Virus record (IMG/VR): IMGVR_UViG_3300044527_000341
Location: 1 to 52,435 of that record
Source: a virus
Length of the DNA: 52,435 bases
Direction: 5' to 3' (one strand)
Under the pieces are notes generated by a model. That model searched no databases and was not told the origin of the DNA. It saw only the letters and a list, made by a program, of their open reading frames with translations. Of this stretch, positions 6,121 through 40,812 are shown piece after piece. How positions within the stretch are numbered: position 1 is the stretch's first letter; every line of letters starts with the position of its first letter. The position numbers and the translations under genes are program-made.

Positions 6121-6331
6121 CAAGCAAGCCAGCCGAAAGGCGGGACGCAATGTCCTAACCCTCCACTGGAAAAACGCTTGTCATATGATCAACCACTTCG
6201 CCAGTGAAGGGATCAACCTGGAATCCCACGAGAACAAACGGCAACCACGCTGTGTGTTTCGTGGGTTTGCCAAGCATGTGTTCTTTCACAATGATTCGGT
6301 GCGTGGCCGTATCGCCACGATATCGGCGTGA
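6095..6331 (+). CDS. small basic hypothetical protein
   Basis: A 78-residue basic, histidine-rich protein starting at ATG 6095 behind GAAAGGAAACC. It lies between the GP88-like gene (26-base overlap) and the methyltransferase, whose GTG start at 6328 overlaps its stop. I do not recognise it. Histidines and one or two cysteines might bind metal. Confidence 0.55.
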   Translation: MRRFFIHYNKQASRKAGRNVLTLHWKNACHMINHFASEGINLESHENKRQPRCVFRGFAKHVFFHNDSVRGRIATISA

Positions 6332-7809
6332 AGTATCTATCCGTTTGCTCTGGCATCGAAGCCGCCTCAGTGGCGTGGGAGTCACTGGGTTGGACGCCGA
6401 TCGCCTTTTCAGAAATCGAACCATTCCCAGCCTCGGTGCTGAAACATCGGTGGCCGATGGTTCCCAACCTAGGAGATATGACCAAGTATGAAAGCTGGAA
6501 ACTCAGCGACACAATTGACCTTATTTGCGGAGGAACACCGTGCCAAGCCTTCAGCGTGGCAGGTGTCCGAAAGGGACTCGACGACCCAAGAGGCGGACTC
6601 ACCCTCACCTTCGTCAGAATGTGCGACCACTTCAACCCCAAGTGGATCGTCTGGGAAAATGTCCCAGGCGTCCTCAGTTCCAAAGACAACGCCTTCGGTT
6701 GCTTTCTGGGAGCGTTGTCGGGAGAAGGCTGTGAACTCAAACCGACAGGGGACAAGTGGACAGACGCTGGTTGTGTGTATGGCCCCAAAAGGACAATCGC
6801 TTGGCGGTGCCTCGATGCCCAATATTTCGGCTTGGCCCAACGACGCAAGCGTGTGTTCGTTGTCGCATGTCCTCGAGACCAAGGAGATCCCACAGAGATT
6901 CTACTTGAGTTCGAAGGCCTGCGCAGGGATCTTGCGCCGAGCCGAGGTTCGGGGCAAGACACTTCCGCCGATGTTGCGGGATGCCTTAGAAGCGGTGGTG
7001 AAAGCGGAGTCCCCAGCAGTCGGGGAGAACACATAGTCCCAAGCTATTGGAACGACCCAGCAAGTCCTTGTGACACTTTGCTGGCAAGGGATTACAAAGG
7101 CATCGGCAACCAAGATCTGACCACTGGCCGAACCTTGGTCAAGGCTGTTGTCCCCATCCACGATCAAGCCACCCGCCACGCTGGTAAGCGTGGGGATAAG
7201 CAAGACGGCAAGGGCAACGGACTTGGGGTTGGCAAGGAAGGAGACCCTTGTCCGACACTCACCAAGGGCGACAAGCACGCCGTCCTTTATGAGAACCATC
7301 CCAATGACAGCCGAGTGACTGGCCCGCTGGATGTGGCTCCCAGTTGCGTGTCCCGCTATGGGACTGGCGGTGGGAATGTCCCACTGGTGCAGGAGAAACT
7401 CGTCGGGCAAGTGGATTGGCGAACAGCCCATAGCGACAACGGGGAGGTATCGCAAACCTTGAAGACAGATCTTGCCCATCAAAGCGGACCTTGTCTTGCG
7501 GTCGATGCCTATAACCAGTCGACCAGTGATATCAGTCAGTCAATCTCTTCATCCGCATCAGACATCAACCACACTGGAGGTGTGCTTGATTCGAGAGTTC
7601 GTTCGGCGGTTCGTCGGTTATTGCCTATGGAATGTGAAAGACTCCAGGGCTTTCCCGATGACCACACGCTGATCCCCTGGAGGGGGAAGCCAGCAAGCGA
7701 GTGTCCCGATGGTCCACGCTACAAGGCACTTGGCAATTCAATGGCCGTGCCGTGTATGCGGTGGATCGGAACTCGGATACATAACTATACAAAGAAGGAG
7801 GTTAGTTGA
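6328..7809 (+). CDS. C5 cytosine-specific DNA methyltransferase
   Basis: A 493-residue Dcm-type enzyme that methylates carbon 5 of cytosine using S-adenosylmethionine. Motif I is SVCSGIEAASVAWESLG at the N-terminus, motif IV is GGTPCQAFSVAG with catalytic Cys near residue 72, motif VI is ENV near residue 110, motif VIII is QRRKR near residue 171, and ECERLQGFPDD and GNSMAVP near the C-terminus are motifs IX and X. Between VIII and IX lies about 270 residues of target-recognition region. The start is GTG 6328. It probably protects phage DNA from host restriction. No restriction partner is nearby. Part of the gene is also open in a second frame (6488-7036). Confidence 0.93.
   Translation: MKYLSVCSGIEAASVAWESLGWTPIAFSEIEPFPASVLKHRWPMVPNLGDMTKYESWKLSDTIDLICGGTPCQAFSVAGVRKGLDDPRGGLTLTFVRMCDHFNPKWIVWENVPGVLSSKDNAFGCFLGALSGEGCELKPTGDKWTDAGCVYGPKRTIAWRCLDAQYFGLAQRRKRVFVVACPRDQGDPTEILLEFEGLRRDLAPSRGSGQDTSADVAGCLRSGGESGVPSSRGEHIVPSYWNDPASPCDTLLARDYKGIGNQDLTTGRTLVKAVVPIHDQATRHAGKRGDKQDGKGNGLGVGKEGDPCPTLTKGDKHAVLYENHPNDSRVTGPLDVAPSCVSRYGTGGGNVPLVQEKLVGQVDWRTAHSDNGEVSQTLKTDLAHQSGPCLAVDAYNQSTSDISQSISSSASDINHTGGVLDSRVRSAVRRLLPMECERLQGFPDDHTLIPWRGKPASECPDGPRYKALGNSMAVPCMRWIGTRIHNYTKKEVS
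6488..7036 (+). CDS. possible overprinted gene inside the methyltransferase
   Basis: A 182-residue frame fully inside the methyltransferase gene, starting ATG 6488 with GGAG upstream. Its C-terminal third (IPQRFYLSSKACAGILRRAE, then RGKTLPPMLRDALEAVV) resembles a motif I recall from stand-alone phage proteins adjacent to or overlapping DNA methyltransferases. The first half is Ser/Thr-rich and looks disordered. The same DNA must encode the essential PCQ and QRRKR motifs in the other frame. Either the second protein is real and overprinted, or the resemblance reflects conserved methyltransferase DNA read out of frame in annotated genomes. No function is known. Confidence 0.4.
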   Translation: MKAGNSATQLTLFAEEHRAKPSAWQVSERDSTTQEADSPSPSSECATTSTPSGSSGKMSQASSVPKTTPSVAFWERCREKAVNSNRQGTSGQTLVVCMAPKGQSLGGASMPNISAWPNDASVCSLSHVLETKEIPQRFYLSSKACAGILRRAEVRGKTLPPMLRDALEAVVKAESPAVGENT

Positions 7810-10468: not shown

Positions 10469-10485
10469 ACTTATAAGGAGGTTAA

Positions 10486-10686
10486 ATGAAAAAGAATGAA
10501 GTGCAACCCAAGATAGATATGACCCCGATATGGGAAAAGAAAGGCGAGTTTGTGTATTTGCTTCTCACACCTTTTCTCTTTCTCGGATTCTGCGTGATCC
10601 TCACAACCTTGATGGCTTGGATGATCGGAGCCTTCCGATGGTTATCGGAGACCTTTGGTCTTCTCTTGCCTAACCTCTTGCAATAG
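10486..10686 (+). CDS. small membrane protein, opposite to surrounding genes
   Basis: A 66-residue protein with a strong AAGGAGG site seven bases before ATG 10486. A soluble N-terminal 20 residues precedes one or two hydrophobic segments (YLLLTPFLFLGFCVILTTLM). It is the only rightward gene between two leftward ones, and its last 45 bases overlap the 3' end of the giant gene. A holin- or exclusion-type role is possible; nothing in the sequence decides this. Confidence 0.6.
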   Translation: MKKNEVQPKIDMTPIWEKKGEFVYLLLTPFLFLGFCVILTTLMAWMIGAFRWLSETFGLLLPNLLQ

Positions 10687-13600
10687 TTCCTGGTTGTCTC
10701 GGATGATCTTGGCCTTCCCGACGGCATTCGCTTTCTGGGCAAGCTTGCCAACATAAAGTTGAGCCATCTCTGGGGTCATAACTTCAAGCCTCTCGATAGT
10801 TCCCTCACGTCCTAGGTCTTCACCCAGTTGTTCCGCCCTAGCTTTGCGGAAGTCGGCGTATTGTTCGTCGGTCATCTTGACCACCCCTAACAAACGATCC
10901 TTCTTGGGAGCCGTTGGTAATGCGTTCTTCTGGACTAGAACCTGAAGCAAGGCGTCCTTCTTTGCGAAACTGATGGGTCGAAACTGCATCTGCACTGGCT
11001 GTCCAAGCATATCCAATTCCGTCTGGCCGTAGATCTGCCTAACAATCGGAGTGTTGGCAACAAAAGCACCTTGGATCGGACCTTCCCTGGCAGTACGGCC
11101 ATAGCCCAGCGTCGGGGAAATCAGAAGCTGATCGAGATCCCGAACAAAGTTTGGCACAACCATCGCCGACCCAAGTCTCGATAGGAATGACTTGGCTTTG
11201 GATAAAGCCCGTTCTGGTTCGCTGGGGTTCAACATCTCAAACAAGTCACTGGCTCCAGAGAGAAAGTTCATATCAAACATAATCGTGGCAACTCGGTGAG
11301 CCATTGCCAAGGCCACATCCGCAGGTTCCTTTTCATTGAAGTAGTCGTAAGTCTCGTTGTCGTTGAACAATCCGACAGCCGACAAGCCCATAGCCAGAGG
11401 CGAAAACATGTAGCTGGCGTAAACCCCGTCCTTCAATACCGGCACATGAGCCGCACGGAGATAGATTGAGTTGGGTTTCCAACCCAAACGGTTCTTGAGT
11501 AGTTCTTTCTGGGCGGCTTCTTTCGGACCCTGCCCGTTGACACAAAGCTCGATCCCGTACTTTTCGTAGTTCCCGCAAAGGATTTGGTCGAGCAAGCCGA
11601 GCATAAACACCGTGCTCAGACCCGTGATTCCTCGGACATACGCCAGATCCCTCTGGATCTTCTGCTCTTCCGCAGTTCCCTGGTACTCCATTGCAAACTT
11701 CCCGGCCAAGTTCTTCCCAAGAACCTTCGGGAGACCACGGGCACGCATCACTCCCCAACCCGTGAAGTCGATGCTCTGGTTCCAGACATTGGCAACGATC
11801 CTGGTGAACGGCACAAAGATGGCCGATTTGAGGGGATGCTCCTTGGCAAACGACCCGATCATCCGATGGAAGGCTCCGAGAACTCCACGAGGCTCCTCGT
11901 TGTAGGTGAGCTCGGTTCCGTAAATCTGCCCAGTGGCAGCAACCTCCGGGTTTTCCGCTTGTGCCTTTTCGTCGATGATCTCCTGCACACGGATGGCCTG
12001 CTCGGCTTGTTGGAGGAATCTTGTGGCCGAGTTGTCAGAGTCGACAACATATCCTTGCGCTTCGGCTTGGGACTGAGCCGCAACCAAGTGTTCGGAATTT
12101 CTGAAAGTGTACTCCAAGGCTTTGGCTGTGGCCGCCTCTTCCTTGAGGCCAGCTTGCTCCGCCTTCTGGTAGGCCGCCTCGAACAAATAGACTTCCTTAT
12201 TAAAGTTGTAGAAAACCATATCGACTGCGGTCATTGTCCTCCGCAGAAGGGAGGCAACTGTGGCAGATATCTTCCCAACCTTTTGCTTCACATTGTCCTG
12301 TGTTGCGTTCCTAGCCACAACCTCGAAGAAGTCTGTCGCCGCCTTGCCAAAGAACTTAGGCTCGGTTTTCCTAGTTCCGACACGGCCAGTCATTAGGACA
12401 TTGCCAGCGTCCATAAAGGAAAGTGAAAGTGCCCGAAGCATAGACCCAACGATGGCCTTGCTTCTTGTGCGATCCGTGGCGTAACCCTTGATGAGGTGCT
12501 TCGAAATCGTCGGGATGGCCAAGAGTGCCGTGTTGGTGGCGTTGCCCAAGAAGTTTGCAAACTGGGTTCCGATACCCGAAAGGATTGAGAAGTACCACCA
12601 GGATTTCGCAAAGTTGTAGGCGTCGATCTGGGTTTCAAAGGCAATCAGCGAAAGGGCATCGCCAATCTTTTCGTCCTTGCGGTAACCCACGAGGTTCTGG
12701 GCTTCGCCCATAATGTTGGCAATCTTCTCGACAACCTCTGGCTTTAGCTTGTCTAGCCCTTCTTGTTTCTGGAACTCGTTCCAGGCGTAGGCATTGTTGA
12801 AAAGGCCAAGGGCTTGGTACTGGACAATTCGGTTCGCAAACCTACGCAACGAAGGCTCAAGCTTTTTGTCGGCGTAGGACTGGATAAGACGATTGAGTTT
12901 CTTCTCGCTCTCCTTGGCCACGATCTCCTGGATCTGGAGAGCAATGGCGTTGGTCAGCCTTTCGGAAAGCGAAGGTATCTTTTCACGGGCGGAAGGTTCT
13001 TCCTTGGCCATACCCTCTTCACGCTTGTACTTTGCAAGGCCAAGTTCGTCCGCCACATCTGCCCCAGTCTCTTCCTCCCAAGCCCCGAGACCAGCTTCCT
13101 GCACGATCTCCCGAGCAAGGGAGTAGGCGTTGTTGGCCAGCTTGCCTTCCTCGTAGTGCTGACGGATCAAGTCCTCGAGCTTTACGCCACGGAGCGAGAT
13201 AAACCTTTTGAGTTGGGGCATTGTGAAGGGGGACTCGAGAACCAGCCCCAGGAACCCATTGAACATTTCGGCTAGCTCCGGGTTGGTTGCGGTACGGGCA
13301 CGGATGGCATCGCTCGCCTTTTCCCAAGCCTGCAAAGCCTTCGGCCAGCGGGAAAGCATCGCCGTGAAGTTCTTGCGCTGTTTGGCCTCCCGTTCTTCCT
13401 TGAGCAGTTTCTCCTGCTCGTCGACGGTCATATTGGCAAACTCTTCGTTCGTGTTGATTCGTGGGTCACGGATGCGACGACCCTGTTCCTCGGCCAGAGC
13501 CATAAACATCCGCTTGATCTCACGGCTCATTTCCTGGGCGGCCTGGTTAATGCTCTTGGCATTCTCCAGTTTCTTGACGGCCTTGCGTTGTTCCGCAGTC

Positions 13601-16600
13601 ATCTCTTCCAACGGAACCCCGGCGGCTTGGGCGGCTTCCGCCTCGGCTTCGGTCAGCTGTTGCGATGCCTTGTCGGCAATGCTCTCGCCCATCTGGTTGG
13701 AGAAGGCTTCCCAGAACCCCATCGCATTGCTCTCGGCAATACGCTTTCTGGATTCCTCGGCGGCGGTTTCGGCCTTCGCCAGAACACCAGACATCTTCTT
13801 CAAGACTTCGTCGATCGTGCCTTCGGGCAGAACCGAAAGCTCGCTCTTGACCTTGTTGAAGAAGACATTGAACTTGTCACGGACTTCACGATTCGTTTCG
13901 TCTGACTTCTTCTTGTAGAGCATCAGCATACCTTCTGGCGTAAGATTACTCCAGAAGGAGAGGGCTCGGAGCGCACGGCCAATGCCCGAGGATTGCTCCA
14001 GGAAGCGGTCGATAAACATCAGAAGGTCGTCGAGGATTCTTGGGTCTTTGTCCTTGGCATAGAGCTCGTTCATCCCGAGGATGATCTTCTGAGCCAGAAG
14101 CTCACGAGAACCGTGCTGGAGAGGGCTGGCGTCGGAAAGGGCGGCATCCATCGAGCCACGGAGTCCGTTCTTGGCCAGATAGTTGTCGGCCTCGGCCTCA
14201 GTCATAGCGTCTGGGATCGGCTCGTAGTTGAGGTTCTTGAGCTTGGCGTAGGCCTCTTCACTGACCTTGTCCTTCAGACGAACCCCGAATCTGCGAGGCA
14301 TTGCGGCTCCGAGAAGGTCGGCGGGTTCACGACGGCTGTAGCTCTTCGGCCCAGGAACGATTCTTTCACCGACATAGATAACCCCATCGGAAACGACATC
14401 CTTGGCGATGTTCTTCTTGGAAAGCTCGTTGGTGGTCATATGGGCATACGAGACCAGCTTCTCGGGATCGTCGTAGCTGACATAGGTCACGCCGTCTTTT
14501 ACATATTCGTTCCAGAGCGTCTTGCCGTTACGCTTGACCATACCAGCCCTAGCCGCGGCGTTGCTGGTCGGCTTGAAATTGTTGATCTGCTGTTGCGTCT
14601 TAAACCTTCCACTATTGACCGCAGACTTTGCACCATCGGGTCTCCACAGAAGGAGGTTCCAGGACGAGCCTTTGTCGTATTCGTCCAGATCCTGCTTGAG
14701 ACGCTCAGTTTCCAGTTGCTCTGCCGCGGCATCATTGAGTTGCCTTGCGGCGATGATCGACTCGATCCGATCCTTCGGCCTTCTTTCGAGCATACCCGAA
14801 GAGCCTAGCTCCTTCTCCTTGACCCAGACCCCGTCAAATCCGAGGTTGATGATGGCTTCCAGAGTGGTGTAGGGGAACAGCGAGTAGAACCTTCTCTTCC
14901 GTTCCGTCTCGGAAAGCCCGTCAAATTCCGCACCAGTTGCGGGAGTTGCGCTCCCAGCCGGTACTCCCTCGAACACCGTCCAGTCAAAGAACCCGCTTTC
15001 CAAGGCAAGCTGGCGATACGGATTTAGCGTGAACTCGCCCTTCTTCTCACGGGCGTATCCGATAAGCTTGGCGATATGCTCGGGGTTCCTCGGATCAAAT
15101 GGGTTGGTTGCCTTGATGTAAAGCGGGACGACAACCTGCTCGTTGTATTCCTCGAAGGTCGATTCGTTCGCCCAGTCTTCGGCAAACTGACGGCTCGAGG
15201 CGACCCACAAACCACGGAAAGCGTTGCCCGTGGAGAAAGACCGCATCGGGTAGAAACGATTGTTGATGTCCTCCCGAAGCCTGTCTTGTACAAAGGTATA
15301 AGAAAGCTGGCGTTTGTCCCAAGAGGTTCCGTGGTACATAACGAGAGGCTCGCCCGAAGCATCCAGAATCTTGCTCGTCCCCTTGCCTTCGGGGAAGTTT
15401 TCCCAATCCCCGAACCACATCTTGAAGGAAGGAGTCCGCTCGAGGCGGTATCTGAACTCCGACTTGGGTTCAGTTCGAATGACCTCGCCACGCTGGTTGA
15501 GGAGTTGGATCGTGGACGGAAGGCCTGTCCTCTTATTGATCAGCTGGCCTTCGGCGTTTCGGGTGACCTCGACCGCCGCCATTTCCTGGGAAAGCTTGGT
15601 GAAGTGGTTGACGATCTCCTCGTCCGTGTACCCGATGGACGGAGGCATCGTGTCGGTTGCGCTCAACTGGTCGGCCATCCACTGCAACCTTTGAGCCATC
15701 ATCGGTCGCAACCTTTCGGGAATGGAGTTTAGGATCTGGTCGCTGTTGAGCACAAGGTCGGAGATCTGAGCCAGAACATCCGAGGCCTTGAGGTTGAACA
15801 TCGGGTACTTCTCCTGCAACTTCGTGAAAGAGTCGTAGAAGAAGGGCTCTTCCCGACGAAGCCCGGTGGCTCGGGTGTCGAGAGTGCCCCCGTTGTCGAT
15901 CCGATACGCCGTATACTTGACCACGGAAGGTGAACCAGAGATGAACACATCCTGGTCGAAAAGCTCGTCGTGCCCGACTATGATGTTGTCGAGGCCTTCG
16001 CCGAGGACATCGTAGTTGAACAGGAATGCGTCGATCAACAGACCGTCACCGATCTCCTCGTAAAGCTTTTGCACAACCTCGGGGTTGGTTCCACTTTGCT
16101 GGCGGACAAACTCGGCCAAGGTCGGACCATAGATGAACTCCGAAAGTTTGGCAGTCTCTCCGTTCGGGAGGGTGATCAGCTTGGATTTCGGAACGGGGTA
16201 GTTGAGGATTCGGTAAACATTCTCCGCCGCAATCTCGTTCTCGAACTGCTCCTGGGTCTGGCCACGCTTTACGACATACTTGAGGCCAGTTTCGTCCATA
16301 TACACACGGACATCGAAAGTCCCAGGCAGAACATCGATTTGTTCCAGACCTTCGAGGCTGTCGGGAAGGCTGACCCAATCCAGACTGACTTTCGGCTCGG
16401 TCGTGGAGAACCCGTGCCTCGGCATAGCCGCACCAATTTCGTCTTCAAGCGGGGGCTCATAAAGCGTCTTGGAACGGGCACGGCCAGACAGGCTGCTCAG
16501 ATCCTGGATGAGCTTGACCTCGTCATTGATGGCCGACTCAAACAGCTTGTCCAGCTGTGTCTGGTTGGGGCTACCCTCGAAATAAAGGTTGAACCCGTCA

Positions 16601-19600
16601 CCGACAACTCGGAGCCATCCACGCTTGAACATTTCCATCACGGGCATCTGCTGGCGTTCCTTGCGATCCAGAGGATCAAGCAGGCTCCACTCGGTCAAGA
16701 AGGTGGCTTTCGGCTCGTTCTCCCGCAACCATTCGACGGCTGCCTCGGCATGGCTTCCGATAGACATAAGATCGACGAGGGCGGTTTCCTCGACATCGAT
16801 CACTTTACCTTCCTTGGTCATCCAGTAAGGCCTGTCCGTGGGCACTGCCGCACCTATAAGATCCTCGTCGCTTGGCCTTTTCGGCTCTTTCTTGAGGGAT
16901 TCCAGCTTGGCCTTGATGGCCTGCACATAATCGGCTTTCTTCCAAAACGGAACCTTAAACTCTTTCTCCTCGTGTTTACGGGTTTTCTCGTTGAATACGA
17001 CAACCTTTCGCTTGGTGGTCGGGACTTTAATCCCAAGTTCTTTGGCGTAATCCTGGAGAAACTTTAGGTTGGCTCGATTAAGCCCAGTGTCCTTGCGTAG
17101 CTCCTCACGGGCTTTTTGCAGGTCTCCCTTTATTGGCTGTGTTTCGGTAAGGGAATCAGTCTTCGTGGGGAAATAATTCATAGAGACTTGAAGCGTCTCG
17201 TTTGGCTTCGCCAGATCTCTGGTAACCCTTTGAGCCATTTGGGCGATCGAGTCTGCGGTGGTTCGGAGGAACTTAGTCTCGGCCGCCGTCCTACCACTCA
17301 AGCCGTAAAGGAACTGGCGGATGGCGTCTAGGAAGCGGAATACAAATCTCCTATCTTGTGGCTCCATCGAGCGAAGGATGGACGCAACGTCAAGGTAGGT
17401 TGACTCTGTGATGGCACCCGTCATCTTCTCCTGGGTGAGCATCCGCATAAACTCCAAGACCATTTTGGTTTCGCCATCTTTGCCAGTGAAAGGCTTGCCG
17501 TCGTTGTACAACTTTTCGAGCTTTTGCTTCAGACCACGGCGGCCTTTGATGATCTTGGCGACACGCTTTGTCTCGTTCTTGAGATGCTGGCGGTAGCTGA
17601 TCCCCAATTCGTTGGCCTCCCTCTTGAGCATCTTCAGATATTTGAAATGTGCGATCTCCTCCGCAATGGCTAGGAAGGCATATTGGGAATAGGCTTTTTT
17701 ACCAAGGGTTCTTTCGATTTGTTGGAGCAACCTTGGATTGACACGGATAACCGGGTTTTCCGCATCACTGTCGGCATCCTCGATCGAGACCGAAACTGCG
17801 CTTCTGGTGTTTAGGTCTACGATATAGCTGGCTGGGAATCCCGACGAGGTTGCCGTGTTGACCAATGTCTTTACGGCACTCGGGGCATTCTTCGACCTTA
17901 AACCTGGGTCAACGGAAACAGGGCTCGGAGCTTCTGGCTGCTTTTCGCCCACTTCTCGTCCAGCTTCGCCAGTTCGTGCACCGACTGGAGCAACTCCTCC
18001 AGCGGTAGGCTCGGGTTGTCCTTCAACAACTCCGCCAGCACGGGCACCCCTCCGTTCTCCTTCGACGCCTTCTCCAGTTCGGCCACGAACCGGACCTTCT
18101 TCAACTTGTTGAGCGGCTCCACGGCCACGCCGGGGAACAGCTTGTCTAACTCTGGGCTTTGCATTTTCAATTCCTTTCTGAATGTTGTCGAGTCTCTGGG
18201 CAACCTCGTTCTCTCCGATCAAGCCTTCCTCCAAAGGAACGATGATCTCGGAGGTGATCCTTGCCCTTGTTAATGTGTTGGCTACGCCGATGGCGTCGAC
18301 CAAAGCCTGCCGTGCGCCGTAACCAACCTTTAGGTTTCGGGCACGATCGGCAAGATTTGCAATGGCTTGGCGGACTTCACGATCCTGGCGGCGTTGCGCT
18401 TCCTCGGCTGCTTTGCGCTCACGGGCGGCACGACCCTCGGGAGTGAGCAACATCTCCAGTGCCCGCACATCGACCTGGATGTTTTCATCACGGAGGTTTT
18501 GGGCGATCTGTTCGACCACCTTGTTAACGAATTCCCCGACACGCTTGTCGCTGACTTTGCGGTTTGCAACCTTGGACAGATAGTCGGCCAAATCCTTGTA
18601 GGTCGTGAGTCTGCCAAGTTCGGTGTCGGCACCGATCATCGTGTCCACAATCCAGTCGATGACCAGTTTGACCTCCGGACCGCTCTGGTCACGGATCAAC
18701 TTGGCGGCCTCACGGAGAGCCGTAACCGCTTTGGATTCCACCACGGGTGCGGCCGGAGCTTCGGCGATTTGCATCCCGGCTGGCTTGGCTTCTTCTCTGG
18801 CGGCCTCTGGTTGTGTGACTGCGCCCTCGGCTGGTGCCGTGCCAAACTGGGCGGCAACTTCCCGTCTGGCGGCTTGCACATTGATTGCGTCTTGCCCAGC
18901 CCTCTTAGCCGAGAAGGTTAGGAACTTTGAAATGGCTTCTTCCGTAAGATCGGTAGGCTGGCCTTTTTCGTTGAACAAGATGGGTCTGCCAAGATTGACC
19001 GACGAGAGCAAACGACCGGCAATACGCTCGACCAACCTTGTGTAGATTTCGGTGTCGGCAGAAGCGAGGTTGGGGAAGCTACCAGCAACTTGCTTTGAGA
19101 TTCTGCGAGCCATCTCAAGAGCCGTGTCACGAAAGTAAGTCTGATCCCCGTTTAGGTTCGGGTTGGAGAAAACCTTCATCAAGCTGGCCAGCCGACGTTG
19201 CCTTTGTTGGGCTGTCTTGTCGACGGCTTGAGGCGCAACCGTTCCAGGTGCGGGAGCCTTTAGTTCGGGCTTGGCAAATTCAAGTTGGGTAAGCTGTCCG
19301 TAAATGGTTTCGAGAGCCTTGAAAAAGTCTTGTTTCTTCCAGCCATTCTTCGGGGCAATCTGTTGATCTTTCGGTAGCCTTGCGTTTGCGTCTTTAAAGG
19401 CTTTCTTCAAGAACTTGATTTGGTTCTGGTTCTTTAGAACATCTTCCCATTTCGGAAGTGCTGGCTGGACTGGCATCTCGGCTGGAGCTTCCGCCTCGAC
19501 CTTCGGTGCTTCGGCTTCAATCGTCGGTGCTTCCGCACGCTTGATCAATTCGGAGTCAAAAATCTTGGAGGCCTGCCGTTCATCCTCCGAAAGCGAGTCG

Positions 19601-21405
19601 ATCTTCCCACGGAAGATGGAGATCAGATCCTGCTGTTCCCGCTTGTTCTTGGCTCGGTCAACCTCGGCAAGCCAGTTCCGAGCCAGAATGTTGGGTCTGG
19701 CTTCGGGCTTTTCTAATGGAGGTACGACTGGCGCAACACCTTCTTTAGGAGCTTGGGGTTGCACACCGGCCGAAACAACAGCGGTAGCTTTGGCGGCTGG
19801 GGCTTCTGCGGCTTTTTCTTTTTCTGGCTCAACTTGTCCCTCAACCTTCGGTGTCGGAGGAACCATTGCGGCCTCGCCACCGGAGATAATATCTAGTGCA
19901 TCCTGCGGAGCGAGTTTGTCAATAGCGTCTTCGGAATAACCCATGTCCTTGAGGGTTGTCCGCATCGGCTTGGTAATCGACCTAGGTGCTTTTACTGCGG
20001 AGACAGGCTGTGGTTCCTCCACCTTGACTGGCTCAACCGCCGGTGTCGGGACTGGGGTGGCCGTGGCGATCGGAACCCCGGCGGCTTCGAGATCTTCCTC
20101 CAGCCCGACAGTGTCTTCGGCCTTCAGCGTAGGAGCCGTTAGGTCGATGCCAGCGAGGGCATCAGCGGTCTTGGGGGCCCCCGCCGCACGAATACGATCA
20201 CGACGTTGGGTAAGTTCATCAAGCTCGCCAGTGGCGATTTTCTTCACTCCCCAGGAAGCAAGTTTTCTGGACTGGCCTACGGTTGCACTGGTTAAGCCCA
20301 ATGCTCCCAAAGGCCCAAGGCTCGAAACAAAGTCGCTGCTGGCTTGGGACAAGATCCGCTTGCTAGCCTCGTCCAATTCGATGTTCCCGAGGGTTTCCGC
20401 CATCCCGTCGGCGGCTCCACGCTTGATAAGATCTTCTTCGGCTTCGGCCACAACTTGAGCCGTCTCCATCGTGGCTCCTTGGGCGGCCTCCTCCAAGCTT
20501 TCGACAACCGTGGTTCCGATGACTTTTCCGACGGGAGCCACTGTCTTCTTTAAAACTTCGGGTGCTTTCTTGGTTGTGTATTCAATCGCTTTGCCGAGAA
20601 TCCCGTTCTTCAAGGCGGTTCCAGCCCCAAGTTTAGCCAGACCCAATACCTGCATATATTCGACCGCGGCGTAAAGCGGTGCAACAACGGATGAAATCTT
20701 TGCGGCAGTCTTCTGGTTAACCCCAGCTTCCAGCGCATCGGCGAAAGCTTGTCCCTTACCTTGTCTCGTCCAGTAATCAAAACCGCCCTTCATAAAACCA
20801 GCGGAAGCCGCGGTAGTCCCAAACAAGGCCGATGTCGGGGCTGCGCCTACACCAGCACCAGCCGCACCAAGACCAGCACCTACGGCAAACCCAGCAGTCC
20901 CGTAGGCACCAGCTGTTTTGGCACCTTCGATGGAACCTTCCACCATCGGACCAGCCATCTGCGAACCCTGGAGGAAAGCGTTGGAGAAAACATTCCCGCC
21001 TTGGTTATAGTATTCCTTCTTGCCGAGTTCCCGCTTTACCGCAAAAAGATTATCGATTGAGTCTGGATTAGCGTCAGCATCATTCGCCAAAACTTGGTCA
21101 GCAATGTCAGCAAACTGGCGGTCGAGAGCCACACCCTGTCTCCCGATATCATAGGCCTCGGCAAGGGACGGGAAGAAACCTTTCTGGTTGGCCATCGGGA
21201 GGTCGAGGAACGGGTTTTTCATACCCTGTTCCTTATCGCTCATCTCGAACGACATGCCCTCAAGACCCTTAAAGATGTCCTCTGAAGTCGTCTTGATCGG
21301 CTCCTGCGCCAATCCAAAGGCAGAACCCAATCCTGGGAAAGCTTCTGCGGGAGGGGTCGAAATCTGTCTGGCGTCACCCCCAGGCGTTAAAATCGTCTGA
21401 GCCAT
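10642..21405 (-). CDS. giant polyvalent-type ejection protein
   Basis: A 3587-residue protein, the largest gene in the window. The N-terminal 400 residues are Gly/Ala-rich with glycine-zipper segments (AGLGAAGAGVGAA). Residues about 400-1200 are Pro/Ala/Glu-rich linkers and helices. Near 1250 is EEIAH, a possible degenerate zincin motif. About 1680-1910 looks like a protein-kinase fold (KYVVKRG, FNYDVLGEGLDNI, YRIDNGG). About 1990-2220 is an ADP-ribosyltransferase-like module of the polyvalent-protein type (FKMWFGDW, YHGT, FSTG). The rest is helical with several hydrophobic segments near 2940, 3265 and 3340. Such proteins are known or inferred to be packaged and ejected into the cell with DNA (DarB-like, large polyvalent proteins). 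Three GAAxP linkers separate modules. It probably combines DNA entry with host-directed effector activity. Confidence 0.85.
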   Translation of the reverse strand: MAQTILTPGGDARQISTPPAEAFPGLGSAFGLAQEPIKTTSEDIFKGLEGMSFEMSDKEQGMKNPFLDLPMANQKGFFPSLAEAYDIGRQGVALDRQFADIADQVLANDADANPDSIDNLFAVKRELGKKEYYNQGGNVFSNAFLQGSQMAGPMVEGSIEGAKTAGAYGTAGFAVGAGLGAAGAGVGAAPTSALFGTTAASAGFMKGGFDYWTRQGKGQAFADALEAGVNQKTAAKISSVVAPLYAAVEYMQVLGLAKLGAGTALKNGILGKAIEYTTKKAPEVLKKTVAPVGKVIGTTVVESLEEAAQGATMETAQVVAEAEEDLIKRGAADGMAETLGNIELDEASKRILSQASSDFVSSLGPLGALGLTSATVGQSRKLASWGVKKIATGELDELTQRRDRIRAAGAPKTADALAGIDLTAPTLKAEDTVGLEEDLEAAGVPIATATPVPTPAVEPVKVEEPQPVSAVKAPRSITKPMRTTLKDMGYSEDAIDKLAPQDALDIISGGEAAMVPPTPKVEGQVEPEKEKAAEAPAAKATAVVSAGVQPQAPKEGVAPVVPPLEKPEARPNILARNWLAEVDRAKNKREQQDLISIFRGKIDSLSEDERQASKIFDSELIKRAEAPTIEAEAPKVEAEAPAEMPVQPALPKWEDVLKNQNQIKFLKKAFKDANARLPKDQQIAPKNGWKKQDFFKALETIYGQLTQLEFAKPELKAPAPGTVAPQAVDKTAQQRQRRLASLMKVFSNPNLNGDQTYFRDTALEMARRISKQVAGSFPNLASADTEIYTRLVERIAGRLLSSVNLGRPILFNEKGQPTDLTEEAISKFLTFSAKRAGQDAINVQAARREVAAQFGTAPAEGAVTQPEAAREEAKPAGMQIAEAPAAPVVESKAVTALREAAKLIRDQSGPEVKLVIDWIVDTMIGADTELGRLTTYKDLADYLSKVANRKVSDKRVGEFVNKVVEQIAQNLRDENIQVDVRALEMLLTPEGRAARERKAAEEAQRRQDREVRQAIANLADRARNLKVGYGARQALVDAIGVANTLTRARITSEIIVPLEEGLIGENEVAQRLDNIQKGIENAKPRVRQAVPRRGRGAAQQVEEGPVRGRTGEGVEGERRGARAGGVVEGQPEPTAGGVAPVGARTGEAGREVGEKQPEAPSPVSVDPGLRSKNAPSAVKTLVNTATSSGFPASYIVDLNTRSAVSVSIEDADSDAENPVIRVNPRLLQQIERTLGKKAYSQYAFLAIAEEIAHFKYLKMLKREANELGISYRQHLKNETKRVAKIIKGRRGLKQKLEKLYNDGKPFTGKDGETKMVLEFMRMLTQEKMTGAITESTYLDVASILRSMEPQDRRFVFRFLDAIRQFLYGLSGRTAAETKFLRTTADSIAQMAQRVTRDLAKPNETLQVSMNYFPTKTDSLTETQPIKGDLQKAREELRKDTGLNRANLKFLQDYAKELGIKVPTTKRKVVVFNEKTRKHEEKEFKVPFWKKADYVQAIKAKLESLKKEPKRPSDEDLIGAAVPTDRPYWMTKEGKVIDVEETALVDLMSIGSHAEAAVEWLRENEPKATFLTEWSLLDPLDRKERQQMPVMEMFKRGWLRVVGDGFNLYFEGSPNQTQLDKLFESAINDEVKLIQDLSSLSGRARSKTLYEPPLEDEIGAAMPRHGFSTTEPKVSLDWVSLPDSLEGLEQIDVLPGTFDVRVYMDETGLKYVVKRGQTQEQFENEIAAENVYRILNYPVPKSKLITLPNGETAKLSEFIYGPTLAEFVRQQSGTNPEVVQKLYEEIGDGLLIDAFLFNYDVLGEGLDNIIVGHDELFDQDVFISGSPSVVKYTAYRIDNGGTLDTRATGLRREEPFFYDSFTKLQEKYPMFNLKASDVLAQISDLVLNSDQILNSIPERLRPMMAQRLQWMADQLSATDTMPPSIGYTDEEIVNHFTKLSQEMAAVEVTRNAEGQLINKRTGLPSTIQLLNQRGEVIRTEPKSEFRYRLERTPSFKMWFGDWENFPEGKGTSKILDASGEPLVMYHGTSWDKRQLSYTFVQDRLREDINNRFYPMRSFSTGNAFRGLWVASSRQFAEDWANESTFEEYNEQVVVPLYIKATNPFDPRNPEHIAKLIGYAREKKGEFTLNPYRQLALESGFFDWTVFEGVPAGSATPATGAEFDGLSETERKRRFYSLFPYTTLEAIINLGFDGVWVKEKELGSSGMLERRPKDRIESIIAARQLNDAAAEQLETERLKQDLDEYDKGSSWNLLLWRPDGAKSAVNSGRFKTQQQINNFKPTSNAAARAGMVKRNGKTLWNEYVKDGVTYVSYDDPEKLVSYAHMTTNELSKKNIAKDVVSDGVIYVGERIVPGPKSYSRREPADLLGAAMPRRFGVRLKDKVSEEAYAKLKNLNYEPIPDAMTEAEADNYLAKNGLRGSMDAALSDASPLQHGSRELLAQKIILGMNELYAKDKDPRILDDLLMFIDRFLEQSSGIGRALRALSFWSNLTPEGMLMLYKKKSDETNREVRDKFNVFFNKVKSELSVLPEGTIDEVLKKMSGVLAKAETAAEESRKRIAESNAMGFWEAFSNQMGESIADKASQQLTEAEAEAAQAAGVPLEEMTAEQRKAVKKLENAKSINQAAQEMSREIKRMFMALAEEQGRRIRDPRINTNEEFANMTVDEQEKLLKEEREAKQRKNFTAMLSRWPKALQAWEKASDAIRARTATNPELAEMFNGFLGLVLESPFTMPQLKRFISLRGVKLEDLIRQHYEEGKLANNAYSLAREIVQEAGLGAWEEETGADVADELGLAKYKREEGMAKEEPSAREKIPSLSERLTNAIALQIQEIVAKESEKKLNRLIQSYADKKLEPSLRRFANRIVQYQALGLFNNAYAWNEFQKQEGLDKLKPEVVEKIANIMGEAQNLVGYRKDEKIGDALSLIAFETQIDAYNFAKSWWYFSILSGIGTQFANFLGNATNTALLAIPTISKHLIKGYATDRTRSKAIVGSMLRALSLSFMDAGNVLMTGRVGTRKTEPKFFGKAATDFFEVVARNATQDNVKQKVGKISATVASLLRRTMTAVDMVFYNFNKEVYLFEAAYQKAEQAGLKEEAATAKALEYTFRNSEHLVAAQSQAEAQGYVVDSDNSATRFLQQAEQAIRVQEIIDEKAQAENPEVAATGQIYGTELTYNEEPRGVLGAFHRMIGSFAKEHPLKSAIFVPFTRIVANVWNQSIDFTGWGVMRARGLPKVLGKNLAGKFAMEYQGTAEEQKIQRDLAYVRGITGLSTVFMLGLLDQILCGNYEKYGIELCVNGQGPKEAAQKELLKNRLGWKPNSIYLRAAHVPVLKDGVYASYMFSPLAMGLSAVGLFNDNETYDYFNEKEPADVALAMAHRVATIMFDMNFLSGASDLFEMLNPSEPERALSKAKSFLSRLGSAMVVPNFVRDLDQLLISPTLGYGRTAREGPIQGAFVANTPIVRQIYGQTELDMLGQPVQMQFRPISFAKKDALLQVLVQKNALPTAPKKDRLLGVVKMTDEQYADFRKARAEQLGEDLGREGTIERLEVMTPEMAQLYVGKLAQKANAVGKAKIIRDNQELLQEVRQEKTKGLR
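17898..18164 (-). CDS. nested out-of-frame gene within the giant gene
   Basis: An 88-residue frame inside the giant gene, same strand, different frame. ATG 18164 is preceded at eight bases by AAAGGA, a complete Shine-Dalgarno site. The product reads as a normal, Leu/Lys/Glu-rich helical protein (MQSPELDKLFPGVAVEPLNK, LAELLKDNPSLPLEELLQSV) with codons favouring C or G in third position. Over the same bases the giant protein reads as an Arg/Gly/Glu/Val low-complexity linker, the kind of region that tolerates overprinting. Alternatively two compensating frameshifts altered the giant gene here. Function unknown. Confidence 0.6.
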   Translation of the reverse strand: MQSPELDKLFPGVAVEPLNKLKKVRFVAELEKASKENGGVPVLAELLKDNPSLPLEELLQSVHELAKLDEKWAKSSQKLRALFPLTQV

Positions 21406-37056: not shown

Positions 37057-37461
37057 CTATCCTCTTTTCGGGGTACGCAAGACATCCCAGTTGTCCCGCC
37101 ACTCGCAGTTGGGGGCGAAATAGACCGATTGAGTGCGTGGGAGCTTTTCAAAAGGCACCACGAAAACCGCATTGAGCTTGGTATGGTAGAAAACAAACGC
37201 ATCCACCACCCCCTTGCTGTAGGGCTTTTTTGTGTTGAGTTGTTGGAACCCAGACCCACGTAGGGCAAAAAACTTTAGCTTCGAGCGTCTGGAATCTTCG
37301 TATCCAGAGGTGGTCTTGACTTGGATGCGTTTTAAAGTCCCCTTGTAATCCGTGATCAAATCGTAGCCTTGGTCATAGATAGGTTGGCTAACAAGGAAGC
37401 CTTGCTCCAAGAGCACGGAGGTCACTTTGCAAACCCCAATGGCTCCAATAGCCTGACTCAT
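37057..37461 (-). CDS. PD-(D/E)XK nuclease-like protein
   Basis: A 134-residue protein resembling small PD-(D/E)XK endonucleases of the intron-endonuclease/Holliday-resolvase-like type. The helical start IGAIGVCKVTSVLLEQGFLV leads to YDLI (Asp34) and RIQVKTT (Gln47, Lys49). The glutamate usually seen in helix A (GxxGE) appears replaced by cysteine or valine, so activity may be altered. ATG 37461 overlaps the endolysin stop (ATGA). It may process DNA during packaging or recombination; its place between lysis and tail genes is odd. Confidence 0.6.
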   Translation of the reverse strand: MSQAIGAIGVCKVTSVLLEQGFLVSQPIYDQGYDLITDYKGTLKRIQVKTTSGYEDSRRSKLKFFALRGSGFQQLNTKKPYSKGVVDAFVFYHTKLNAVFVVPFEKLPRTQSVYFAPNCEWRDNWDVLRTPKRG

Positions 37462-37988
37462 AGCCAGTCCTTCCCGAGAACATTGACAGCCAATCGGCGA
37501 CGGCGGTAAACGCCATCTCCGTCACGGCTCCCGCCACCATTGGTGTTCCCCTCGATGGTCACAAGCCAGTCACCCTCGTTTTTCTCAACCAAACCGACAT
37601 GAGCAACACGACCCATAGAGTTAAACCAAATCCCAAAAACATCGGCTGGTTTGAGGGGTGTGCCTCTCCGCTGGCGATCCCAAGTCGGCTTTGCCAGGAA
37701 AACTGGAGACCAGCCAGATCTCGGGTAAGGGTTAAAGATGGTCGATCCGAAGGCTTTGTCACCGACCCAGACAATGAAGGCTGCACACCAGGGGGCTTTC
37801 GTTCCGGCAAGGTTTACGGATGCGAGGATCTCGTCCACCACGGGCCCGTCGTTGCGTCCACTTGCCTCTCGAATCCCGATAGATTTACGGGCCTGTTCGA
37901 CGATGAGAAGCCTCTCCTTTTCAACTCCTGGGCCAGCCAGACAGTCGGAAAGAAACGCAAGAAAAAGCGCAACATAAACTATTTGCAT
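37458..37988 (-). CDS. secreted CHAP-like endolysin
   Basis: A 176-residue protein. The start is ATG 37988, which gives an N-terminal hydrophobic signal (MQIVYVALFLAFLSDCLAG); the open frame extends to 38057 but overlaps the membrane-protein gene. Catalytic residues of a CHAP/NlpC-P60 fold are visible: Cys68 in PWCAAFIVW, His130 in VAHVGLV and Glu146/Asn148 in TIEGNTN. It probably cuts peptide bonds of peptidoglycan. With a signal or signal-anchor it would reach the periplasm by Sec, so lysis timing would be set by the neighbouring membrane proteins. Confidence 0.75.
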   Translation of the reverse strand: MQIVYVALFLAFLSDCLAGPGVEKERLLIVEQARKSIGIREASGRNDGPVVDEILASVNLAGTKAPWCAAFIVWVGDKAFGSTIFNPYPRSGWSPVFLAKPTWDRQRRGTPLKPADVFGIWFNSMGRVAHVGLVEKNEGDWLVTIEGNTNGGGSRDGDGVYRRRRLAVNVLGKDWL

Positions 37989-38320
37989 GAAAGGATTGCG
38001 GAGATCAAGAGGATCCCAAAAACCAAAACAAAGATCTTCAACCTTGTTCCAGCGCAAGCTTCCTTCCAGTCATCCTTGAGAACGCCCTTGTCAACATACC
38101 GATCAAGAATCTTCCAATCCAACTGGAGCACGCTCCAAGCTAGGAACGTGCAGAAAAGAAACCGAACAGCCCCAAATGCAAGAACATGGAGGCTCCCTAA
38201 ATCAACCGTGCCAGCCGTGGTGTCGAAACCCTGCAAGATTGGGCCGAGAAGAAAGAAAATGATGATAGCGACAAGCAAAGCCGCAAGACCCTGCAAGTTG
38301 GATCTAAGCCAGCGGATCAC
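37979..38320 (-). CDS. multi-span membrane protein, holin candidate
   Basis: A 113-residue protein with three hydrophobic segments (LAALLVAIIIFFLLGPIL, LHVLAFGAVRFLFCTFLAW, KIFVLVFGILLISAILSC) and a soluble loop. ATG 38320 overlaps the preceding stop, and its own end overlaps the endolysin start. Position inside the lysis cassette makes it the best holin candidate, though size and topology would also fit an antiholin or another inner-membrane protein. Confidence 0.65.
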   Translation of the reverse strand: MIRWLRSNLQGLAALLVAIIIFFLLGPILQGFDTTAGTVDLGSLHVLAFGAVRFLFCTFLAWSVLQLDWKILDRYVDKGVLKDDWKEACAGTRLKIFVLVFGILLISAILSCK

Positions 38321-39597: not shown

Positions 39598-40812
39598 TTA
39601 CGAGTAGCAACCGACAAGGTTCAAGTCGTTGTTGCAACGCGAGTGACGGATCACATATCCGTACTGCGGGAACACCGGCTTGGAACCGCTGCCGAACACA
39701 GCGCGGAAGAACCCAATGGCACCGTCCGGATTGTTATCACGATCCGGAATATTGCGCCAAGTGAAGTCCCCACGGAAACTGTGAGGGTCAAAGTTCATCG
39801 CACCCGTGCCACTGATCGGCTTCGGGATCAAGGAGGTGAACACATCCTGATGGAAGATGATCGTGTCCTCGAACTCAGCCGTTTCGTAGGCGGGGTTGAT
39901 GTCATATTTGTATCCCTGCGTGCCAGCCGCACTGCGGATGAACGGATACCGGCGCACATAGGAGCCAGCAACCTTATCCCAGCGAGGGGCATAGGGGTCG
40001 ACGAGGTGGTGGAACCCACGATAGGTCCGATTGACGCCCAGAGGGGCGAGCAATTCGTTAACCCGATCGCTCCAGCGGAAGTCCTGACGGATATCCGCAT
40101 TGGAACGGATCAAGTCGTCGGAAGCTTCCGAAGACATGATCGCAAGGAACACCGGAGCTCCGTTGGAACGATCGTACACGTTGTTGCCTGCGCCGTCGCG
40201 GATCAACTTCATGTAGATACGATCCAGGATACCCTGGGTCAGCTTGCTGGTGGGGGAGTTGCCAGCCGCGCCGGTGCCAAGGAACGCACCCGTGCTGACC
40301 TCTTCGAGGTTAGGGCGGGCGATGACCTTGTGATCCGACAGGCGGACGTACTCATCACGATAACGCTCTTTCCAGACTTCGCTCGTGGCGTCGGTGAGGA
40401 TCGCCATGATGTTGGCGAGCTGCTCTTTCCGTTTCAGCGGGAAGCGCAGATCGTTCAAGCAGATGTCCGGGCTATTGAGCGCGGTTTGCTGGAGGTTGTA
40501 GGTCCGAAGGGTCTGACCGAACTCGATCGTTTCGGCGGAAGGGGCGCAAGAGCCCGAGCCGACGCTACCCGTGGGGTAGGCAGGATTCGAGGATAGGTTA
40601 GCCCAAGAGACCTTGGGGGTTCCGTCGCTCTTATAGGGGAGCGAACGTTCGTAGACCAGGACGGAAACGGAATCACCCATCTCATCCGGCCACGCATCTT
40701 GTTTTACGAGCTTGAGCCAAGGAGAGGTGTCGACAGTCCGACGATAGATGTCGGGACCAATACGACCGCTCTCTTTGATCAACAGCTGCTCGACGTCAAA
40801 CGTAGTAGCCAT
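39598..40812 (-). CDS. major capsid protein
   Basis: A 404-residue protein, beginning MATTFDVEQLLIKESGRIGP and ending RHSRCNNDLNLVGCYS. Placement after portal and scaffold genes, the long well-spaced leader, a good AAAGG site and visibly more uniform codon choice than its neighbours all fit the most abundant virion protein. Central stretches (APVFLAIMSSEASDDLIRSN, FHHLVDPYAPRWDKV, FRAVFGSGSKPVFPQYGYVI) are typical of HK97-fold capsid proteins of aquatic phages. No catalytic residues are expected. The assignment rests on order, size and composition; the sequence family is recalled rather than searched. Confidence 0.8.
   Translation of the reverse strand: MATTFDVEQLLIKESGRIGPDIYRRTVDTSPWLKLVKQDAWPDEMGDSVSVLVYERSLPYKSDGTPKVSWANLSSNPAYPTGSVGSGSCAPSAETIEFGQTLRTYNLQQTALNSPDICLNDLRFPLKRKEQLANIMAILTDATSEVWKERYRDEYVRLSDHKVIARPNLEEVSTGAFLGTGAAGNSPTSKLTQGILDRIYMKLIRDGAGNNVYDRSNGAPVFLAIMSSEASDDLIRSNADIRQDFRWSDRVNELLAPLGVNRTYRGFHHLVDPYAPRWDKVAGSYVRRYPFIRSAAGTQGYKYDINPAYETAEFEDTIIFHQDVFTSLIPKPISGTGAMNFDPHSFRGDFTWRNIPDRDNNPDGAIGFFRAVFGSGSKPVFPQYGYVIRHSRCNNDLNLVGCYS

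Follow-up and report, generated by a model that had tools for sequence, protein, structure and literature searches.

In tailed phages, claims of embedded genes seldom gain acceptance, and annotation guides urge extreme caution in recording them. In Caudoviricetes they have been described as rare, Rz1 being the best example (PMC8785237). Across viruses, wholly nested genes made up 30% of the annotated overlaps in a large survey, a figure that rests on existing annotation (PMC7017920). For the polyvalent proteins of phages, packaging and injection together with the DNA have been predicted (Iyer et al. 2017, PMC5512222); a search of the text of that paper gave no mention of overlapping or alternative-frame genes.

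We analysed a stretch of viral DNA of 52,435 nucleotides (IMG/VR record IMGVR_UViG_3300044527_000341, positions 1 to 52,435; hereafter the window), in which an earlier note, made from the letters alone, had described a small frame nested in a giant gene. From the sequence comparisons given below, this locus is very probably a genuine overlapping gene pair, in which a small protein would be made by internal initiation and is overprinted on a linker of the giant protein. No published report of the nested gene was found in the literature searched, itself only a partial sample.

The giant gene and the frame within it

The host gene lies on the minus strand (10642..21405) and encodes a giant polyvalent, putatively ejected protein of 3,587 residues. 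An ADP-ribosyltransferase-like ART-PolyVal region, near residues 2015-2109, scored 29.8 bits in the window, just under the cut-off of 31.2, and 33.0 bits, above the cut-off, in the homologue from the relative G004; on the latter score the giant can be placed among the polyvalent proteins, as a giant multidomain phage protein carrying ART-PolyVal. In its C-terminal part, the giant resembles a 1,122-residue protein of the podovirus MW202801, which is found towards the end of the structural module there. Given the domain, this likeness and the predicted injection of the family, the name "ejection protein" is plausible, packaging and injection being predicted here from the polyvalent family. Queries with the giant protein gave no match in cellular genome contigs. 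The G004 giant (L066), of 4,344 residues, has an FtsK gamma-like match near residue 740 that falls under the cut-off (19.6 bits). The N-terminal part of the window's giant (residues 1-634; 21405-19504, minus strand) is 42% identical at the amino acid level to that of the close relative G001, the two giants being otherwise 99% identical, which points to a recombination boundary.

Codons 1093-1159 of the giant (17929..18129, minus strand) form a linker that is predicted to be disordered from both composition and modelling. Over the overlap, the giant frame is rich in Arg, Gly, Val and Glu, with 85-93% disorder-promoting residues. In an AlphaFold model of codons 881-1400, residues 1093-1159 had a pLDDT below 50, mostly 25-38, and the flanking domains mostly 75-90. 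The earlier note had described an Arg/Gly/Val/Glu low-complexity linker at this place, and the composition and the low pLDDT between well-predicted domains agree with that description. In the domain after the linker, an E-x-x-H motif (EEIAH, EEVAH, QEIIH, EEVVH or HETVH) is conserved near residue 1250 of the giant (~17640-17665, minus strand); this domain is possibly a degenerate, metallopeptidase-like one.

The nested frame (17898..18164, minus strand) comprises 88 codons and a TAA stop, spans giant codons 1081-1169 in the +1 frame and is thus wholly contained within another gene, in a different frame and with its own start and stop. The translation of 17898-18203 (minus strand), read from the ATG at 18164, gives MQSPELDKLFPGVAVEPLNKLKKVRFVAELEKASKENGGVPVLAELLKDNPSLPLEELLQSVHELAKLDEKWAKSSQKLRALFPLTQV followed by the stop, so the 88-codon ATG frame of the earlier note is confirmed; that both genes share a strand also holds, the strand, left unstated there, being the minus strand. 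An AAAGGA ribosome-binding site had been placed eight bases from the ATG: the site is present (18172..18177, minus strand), and by count the spacing in the window is 7 nt. The product, of about 10 kDa, is predicted to be soluble, neutral to acidic and devoid of a transmembrane stretch. A model built from six sequences is all-helix, with a mean pLDDT of 71, in keeping with the earlier description of a normal helical protein. According to these models, the overlap pairs a tolerant linker in the giant frame with a folded nested product. When the window's giant protein is re-coded synonymously, 84 codons stay open at this position in 43% of cases, and therefore the window sequence taken singly proves nothing.

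Conservation and coding in both frames

A first scan identified G001, a 98% identical genome, and the divergent G002, the latter through the C-terminus of the giant; a portal motif and a giant motif then gave five further records (G004, G012, G013, G016 and G017). The comparison set, window included, thus consists of eight records in five lineages, G012, G013 and G016 being taken as one lineage, and all relatives of the window are metagenomic contigs. Between lineages, the giants are about 35 to 60% identical in the pairs compared, the lower end being also put at about 37%. Two more distant giants, those of G010 and MW202801, are similar in the C-terminal part alone and were uninformative on the nested region. 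The identity of G012 and G016 at the DNA level (0 of 288 differences) was discarded as evidence, the flanking stretches being near-identical too.

All eight records, whose giants cover the stretch, have the nested frame in the same place, always in the +1 frame and always with an ATG. Its length is 86, 88 or 95 codons depending on the lineage, and the AAAGGA site is always present, as AGAAAGGA, identical in all five lineages. Stops bound the nested frame upstream and at its end in every lineage, with 8-35 codons open before the ATG, and the giant frame is open throughout. The product evolves fast, with an identity of 34% across the deepest split; 21 residues are invariant in six aligned nested products. 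The earlier note had named two patterns in homologues that would speak against a nested gene, namely a broken nested frame or the 88-residue sequence read in the main frame. Neither appeared: none of the eight records has a giant homologue with the linker and without the nested frame, and in no homologue does the giant frame encode the 88-residue sequence.

The same note had proposed computing synonymous constraint in both frames across homologous giant genes, and this comparison revealed dual coding. In all 10 lineage pairs, the giant-frame synonymous divergence (pS) in the overlap was 0.17-0.34 as compared to 0.75-0.81 gene-wide, and the non-synonymous divergence there (0.29-0.56) was above the synonymous one. 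For the nested reading of this DNA, pS was 0.52-0.71 and pN 0.18-0.44, pS being 1.4-2.9 times pN, and changes at codon positions 3, 1 and 2 numbered 39, 30 and 19. As judged from these substitutions, the nested frame behaves as a normal protein gene under purifying selection. Codon identity was also scanned along the whole giant gene, wherever the amino acid was unchanged; the four most conserved 30-codon windows all fell in codons 1074-1180 (0.74-0.93 versus a mean of 0.40); within the gene, the sharp drop of giant-frame synonymous divergence is confined to the overlap.

Two null models were used, both of which assume saturated synonymous sites, approximately true for these pairs. With the giant proteins kept and their synonymous codons re-drawn (20,000 draws; six pairs among four lineages), the best nested identity under this saturation assumption was 0.33-0.39 versus 0.53-0.66 observed, and none of the 20,000 draws reached the observed value; the conservation of the nested frame exceeds what the giant frame forces. 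With the nested proteins kept and codons re-drawn (10,000 draws per lineage, same assumption), the giant frame was open in 11 of 10,000 draws (0.11%) for the window and in none of the 10,000 in any of the four other lineages, and the giant-frame identity was also above this null, as expected of selection on the host frame. Since the nested similarity is not explained by the giant frame alone, nor the openness by the nested frame alone, these comparisons indicate that both readings are kept by selection. The nested gene is almost certainly real in the evolutionary sense.

These results also bear on accounts in which no second gene is needed. The main alternative of the earlier note was a pair of compensating frameshifts, the nested sequence being the ancestral giant frame displaced in the window genome. 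Although the normal coding composition of the nested frame (GC3 0.88) would fit, five lineages share the same out-of-frame arrangement between bounding stops, no homologue reads the nested sequence in the giant frame, and the giant frame is open far beyond chance; we give this account practically no weight. The strong conservation of giant-frame synonymous sites could also be produced by a conserved nucleotide element, such as an RNA structure or a packaging signal, that lowers synonymous change without any second protein. However, the substitutions track the nested codon structure in both the pS/pN ratio and the order of codon positions, the nested frame is free of internal stops and retains its ATG, Shine-Dalgarno-like site and stop, and the third frame over the stretch contains stops, all of which makes such an element highly improbable as the explanation. 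Programmed +1 frameshifting, yielding a truncated giant that ends in the nested sequence, would be consistent with the +1 frame, with the conserved AACAT(T/C)nAGAAAGGA just upstream and with the codons open before the ATG. Yet a ribosome-binding site at the correct spacing and a conserved ATG already account for the conserved element, and because a frameshift needs no ATG, the conserved one would be left unexplained; we consider frameshifting very unlikely.

Other spots in the window were noted. A C5-cytosine DNA methyltransferase gene (6328-7809, plus strand; PF00145, 1.5e-44) contains a 182-residue ORF (6488-7036, plus strand) in its +1 frame. This ORF is open in G002, with 68% identity over 171 residues, and the methyltransferase-frame pS over it is 0.35 versus 0.61 gene-wide. 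Matches to it occur in 140 phage records, mostly to its C-terminal half, and most of those listed lie under annotated methyltransferases; it could be an overprinted gene of wide distribution. Synonymous divergence to G002 was also low (0.20-0.37) in codons 1-80 of 37458-38057 (minus strand), partly due to the overlap with 37979-38320, and in codons 100-160 of 39598-40812 (minus strand). An ORF at 10482-10754 (minus strand) overlaps the 3' end of the giant gene by 113 nt; it is found only in the near-identical G001, is absent in the other lineages and is probably an example of chance overlap in this DNA.

Probable expression, possible origin and role of the nested gene

In the overlapping-gene reading, ribosomes on the giant's mRNA would start internally at the ATG behind the AGAAAGGA site, and a soluble helical protein of 86-95 residues would be made separately, in the +1 frame over the giant's disordered linker. 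The conserved site and ATG make expression by internal initiation highly likely. The nested start region tends to be less paired than random gene sites, ranking in the top 3-5% in three lineages but, at 13% and 29%, being unremarkable in the two others. The search for a local promoter gave one weak match only, the -10 box of which overlaps the ATG, and which is therefore incapable of producing a leadered message.

The nested frame would have been born by overprinting of the tolerant linker. A search for stand-alone homologues of the 88-residue sequence, suggested in the earlier note, came back empty in phages, plasmids, IMG/VR scans, Pfam and PHROGs. No relative was found among PDB sequences, where the two best matches were to engineered or de novo proteins and no single stretch passed by itself, and a fold search gave no significant match. 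In G004 and G017, codon usage is typical for the giant frame and atypical for the nested one, which favours the giant frame as the older. Elsewhere the signal is ambiguous: in the window each frame lies roughly within the usual range, and in G012 each is marginal. Orphan status and codon usage fit birth by overprinting; insertion of a gene of other origin is possible instead.

With regard to function, the reading we favour, though only tentatively, is that the nested protein assists the giant: produced from one message with it, the small protein may bind the giant in folding, packaging or ejection. That it could be an obligate partner, a chaperone or co-injected subunit of the giant polyvalent protein, is rather doubtful; if true, a single DNA stretch would encode a tether within an injected multi-tool protein as well as the helper dedicated to that protein. 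The nested product may also be real and act alone, as a small host-directed or virion protein for which the shared locus gives only co-expression, a reading we rate as slightly less likely than the helper. Many phage accessory proteins are small, fast-evolving orphans, and the nested product, small, soluble, neutral to acidic, lacking a transmembrane stretch and without relatives in Pfam, PHROGs, PDB or fold searches, resembles them. On the other hand, the nested sequence was never found elsewhere in these phages, and every lineage has strictly kept it at the same site of the same gene, which a tie to the giant fits somewhat better.

Comparison with known overlapping genes

With five lineages and strong tests in both frames behind it, the nested gene adds a member to the embedded overprinted genes already known. 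It indicates that a complete second gene can be housed in a disordered linker of a giant phage protein, and its products make up an orphan protein family. The methyltransferase-embedded ORF of the same phage is likewise a same-strand ORF in the +1 frame, with an unrelated protein. Like the polyvalent proteins (PMC5512222), the giant is a huge multidomain protein with an ART-PolyVal domain, to which the nested gene is an addition.

As in the Rz/Rz1 pair of phage lambda, a small gene lies wholly in another one, on the same strand, in a different frame and with its own start. Unlike Rz1, an embedded o-spanin, the nested product is no lysis protein: it has no transmembrane stretch and, in any of the five lineages, no cysteine for a lipobox. 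Its host is a giant polyvalent gene. The pair also shares with the overprinted genes of viruses (reviewed in PMC8227390) an orphan in the second frame, selection on both frames and one disordered product, but differs from them in that the host gene is unusually long and the phage genome is not compact.
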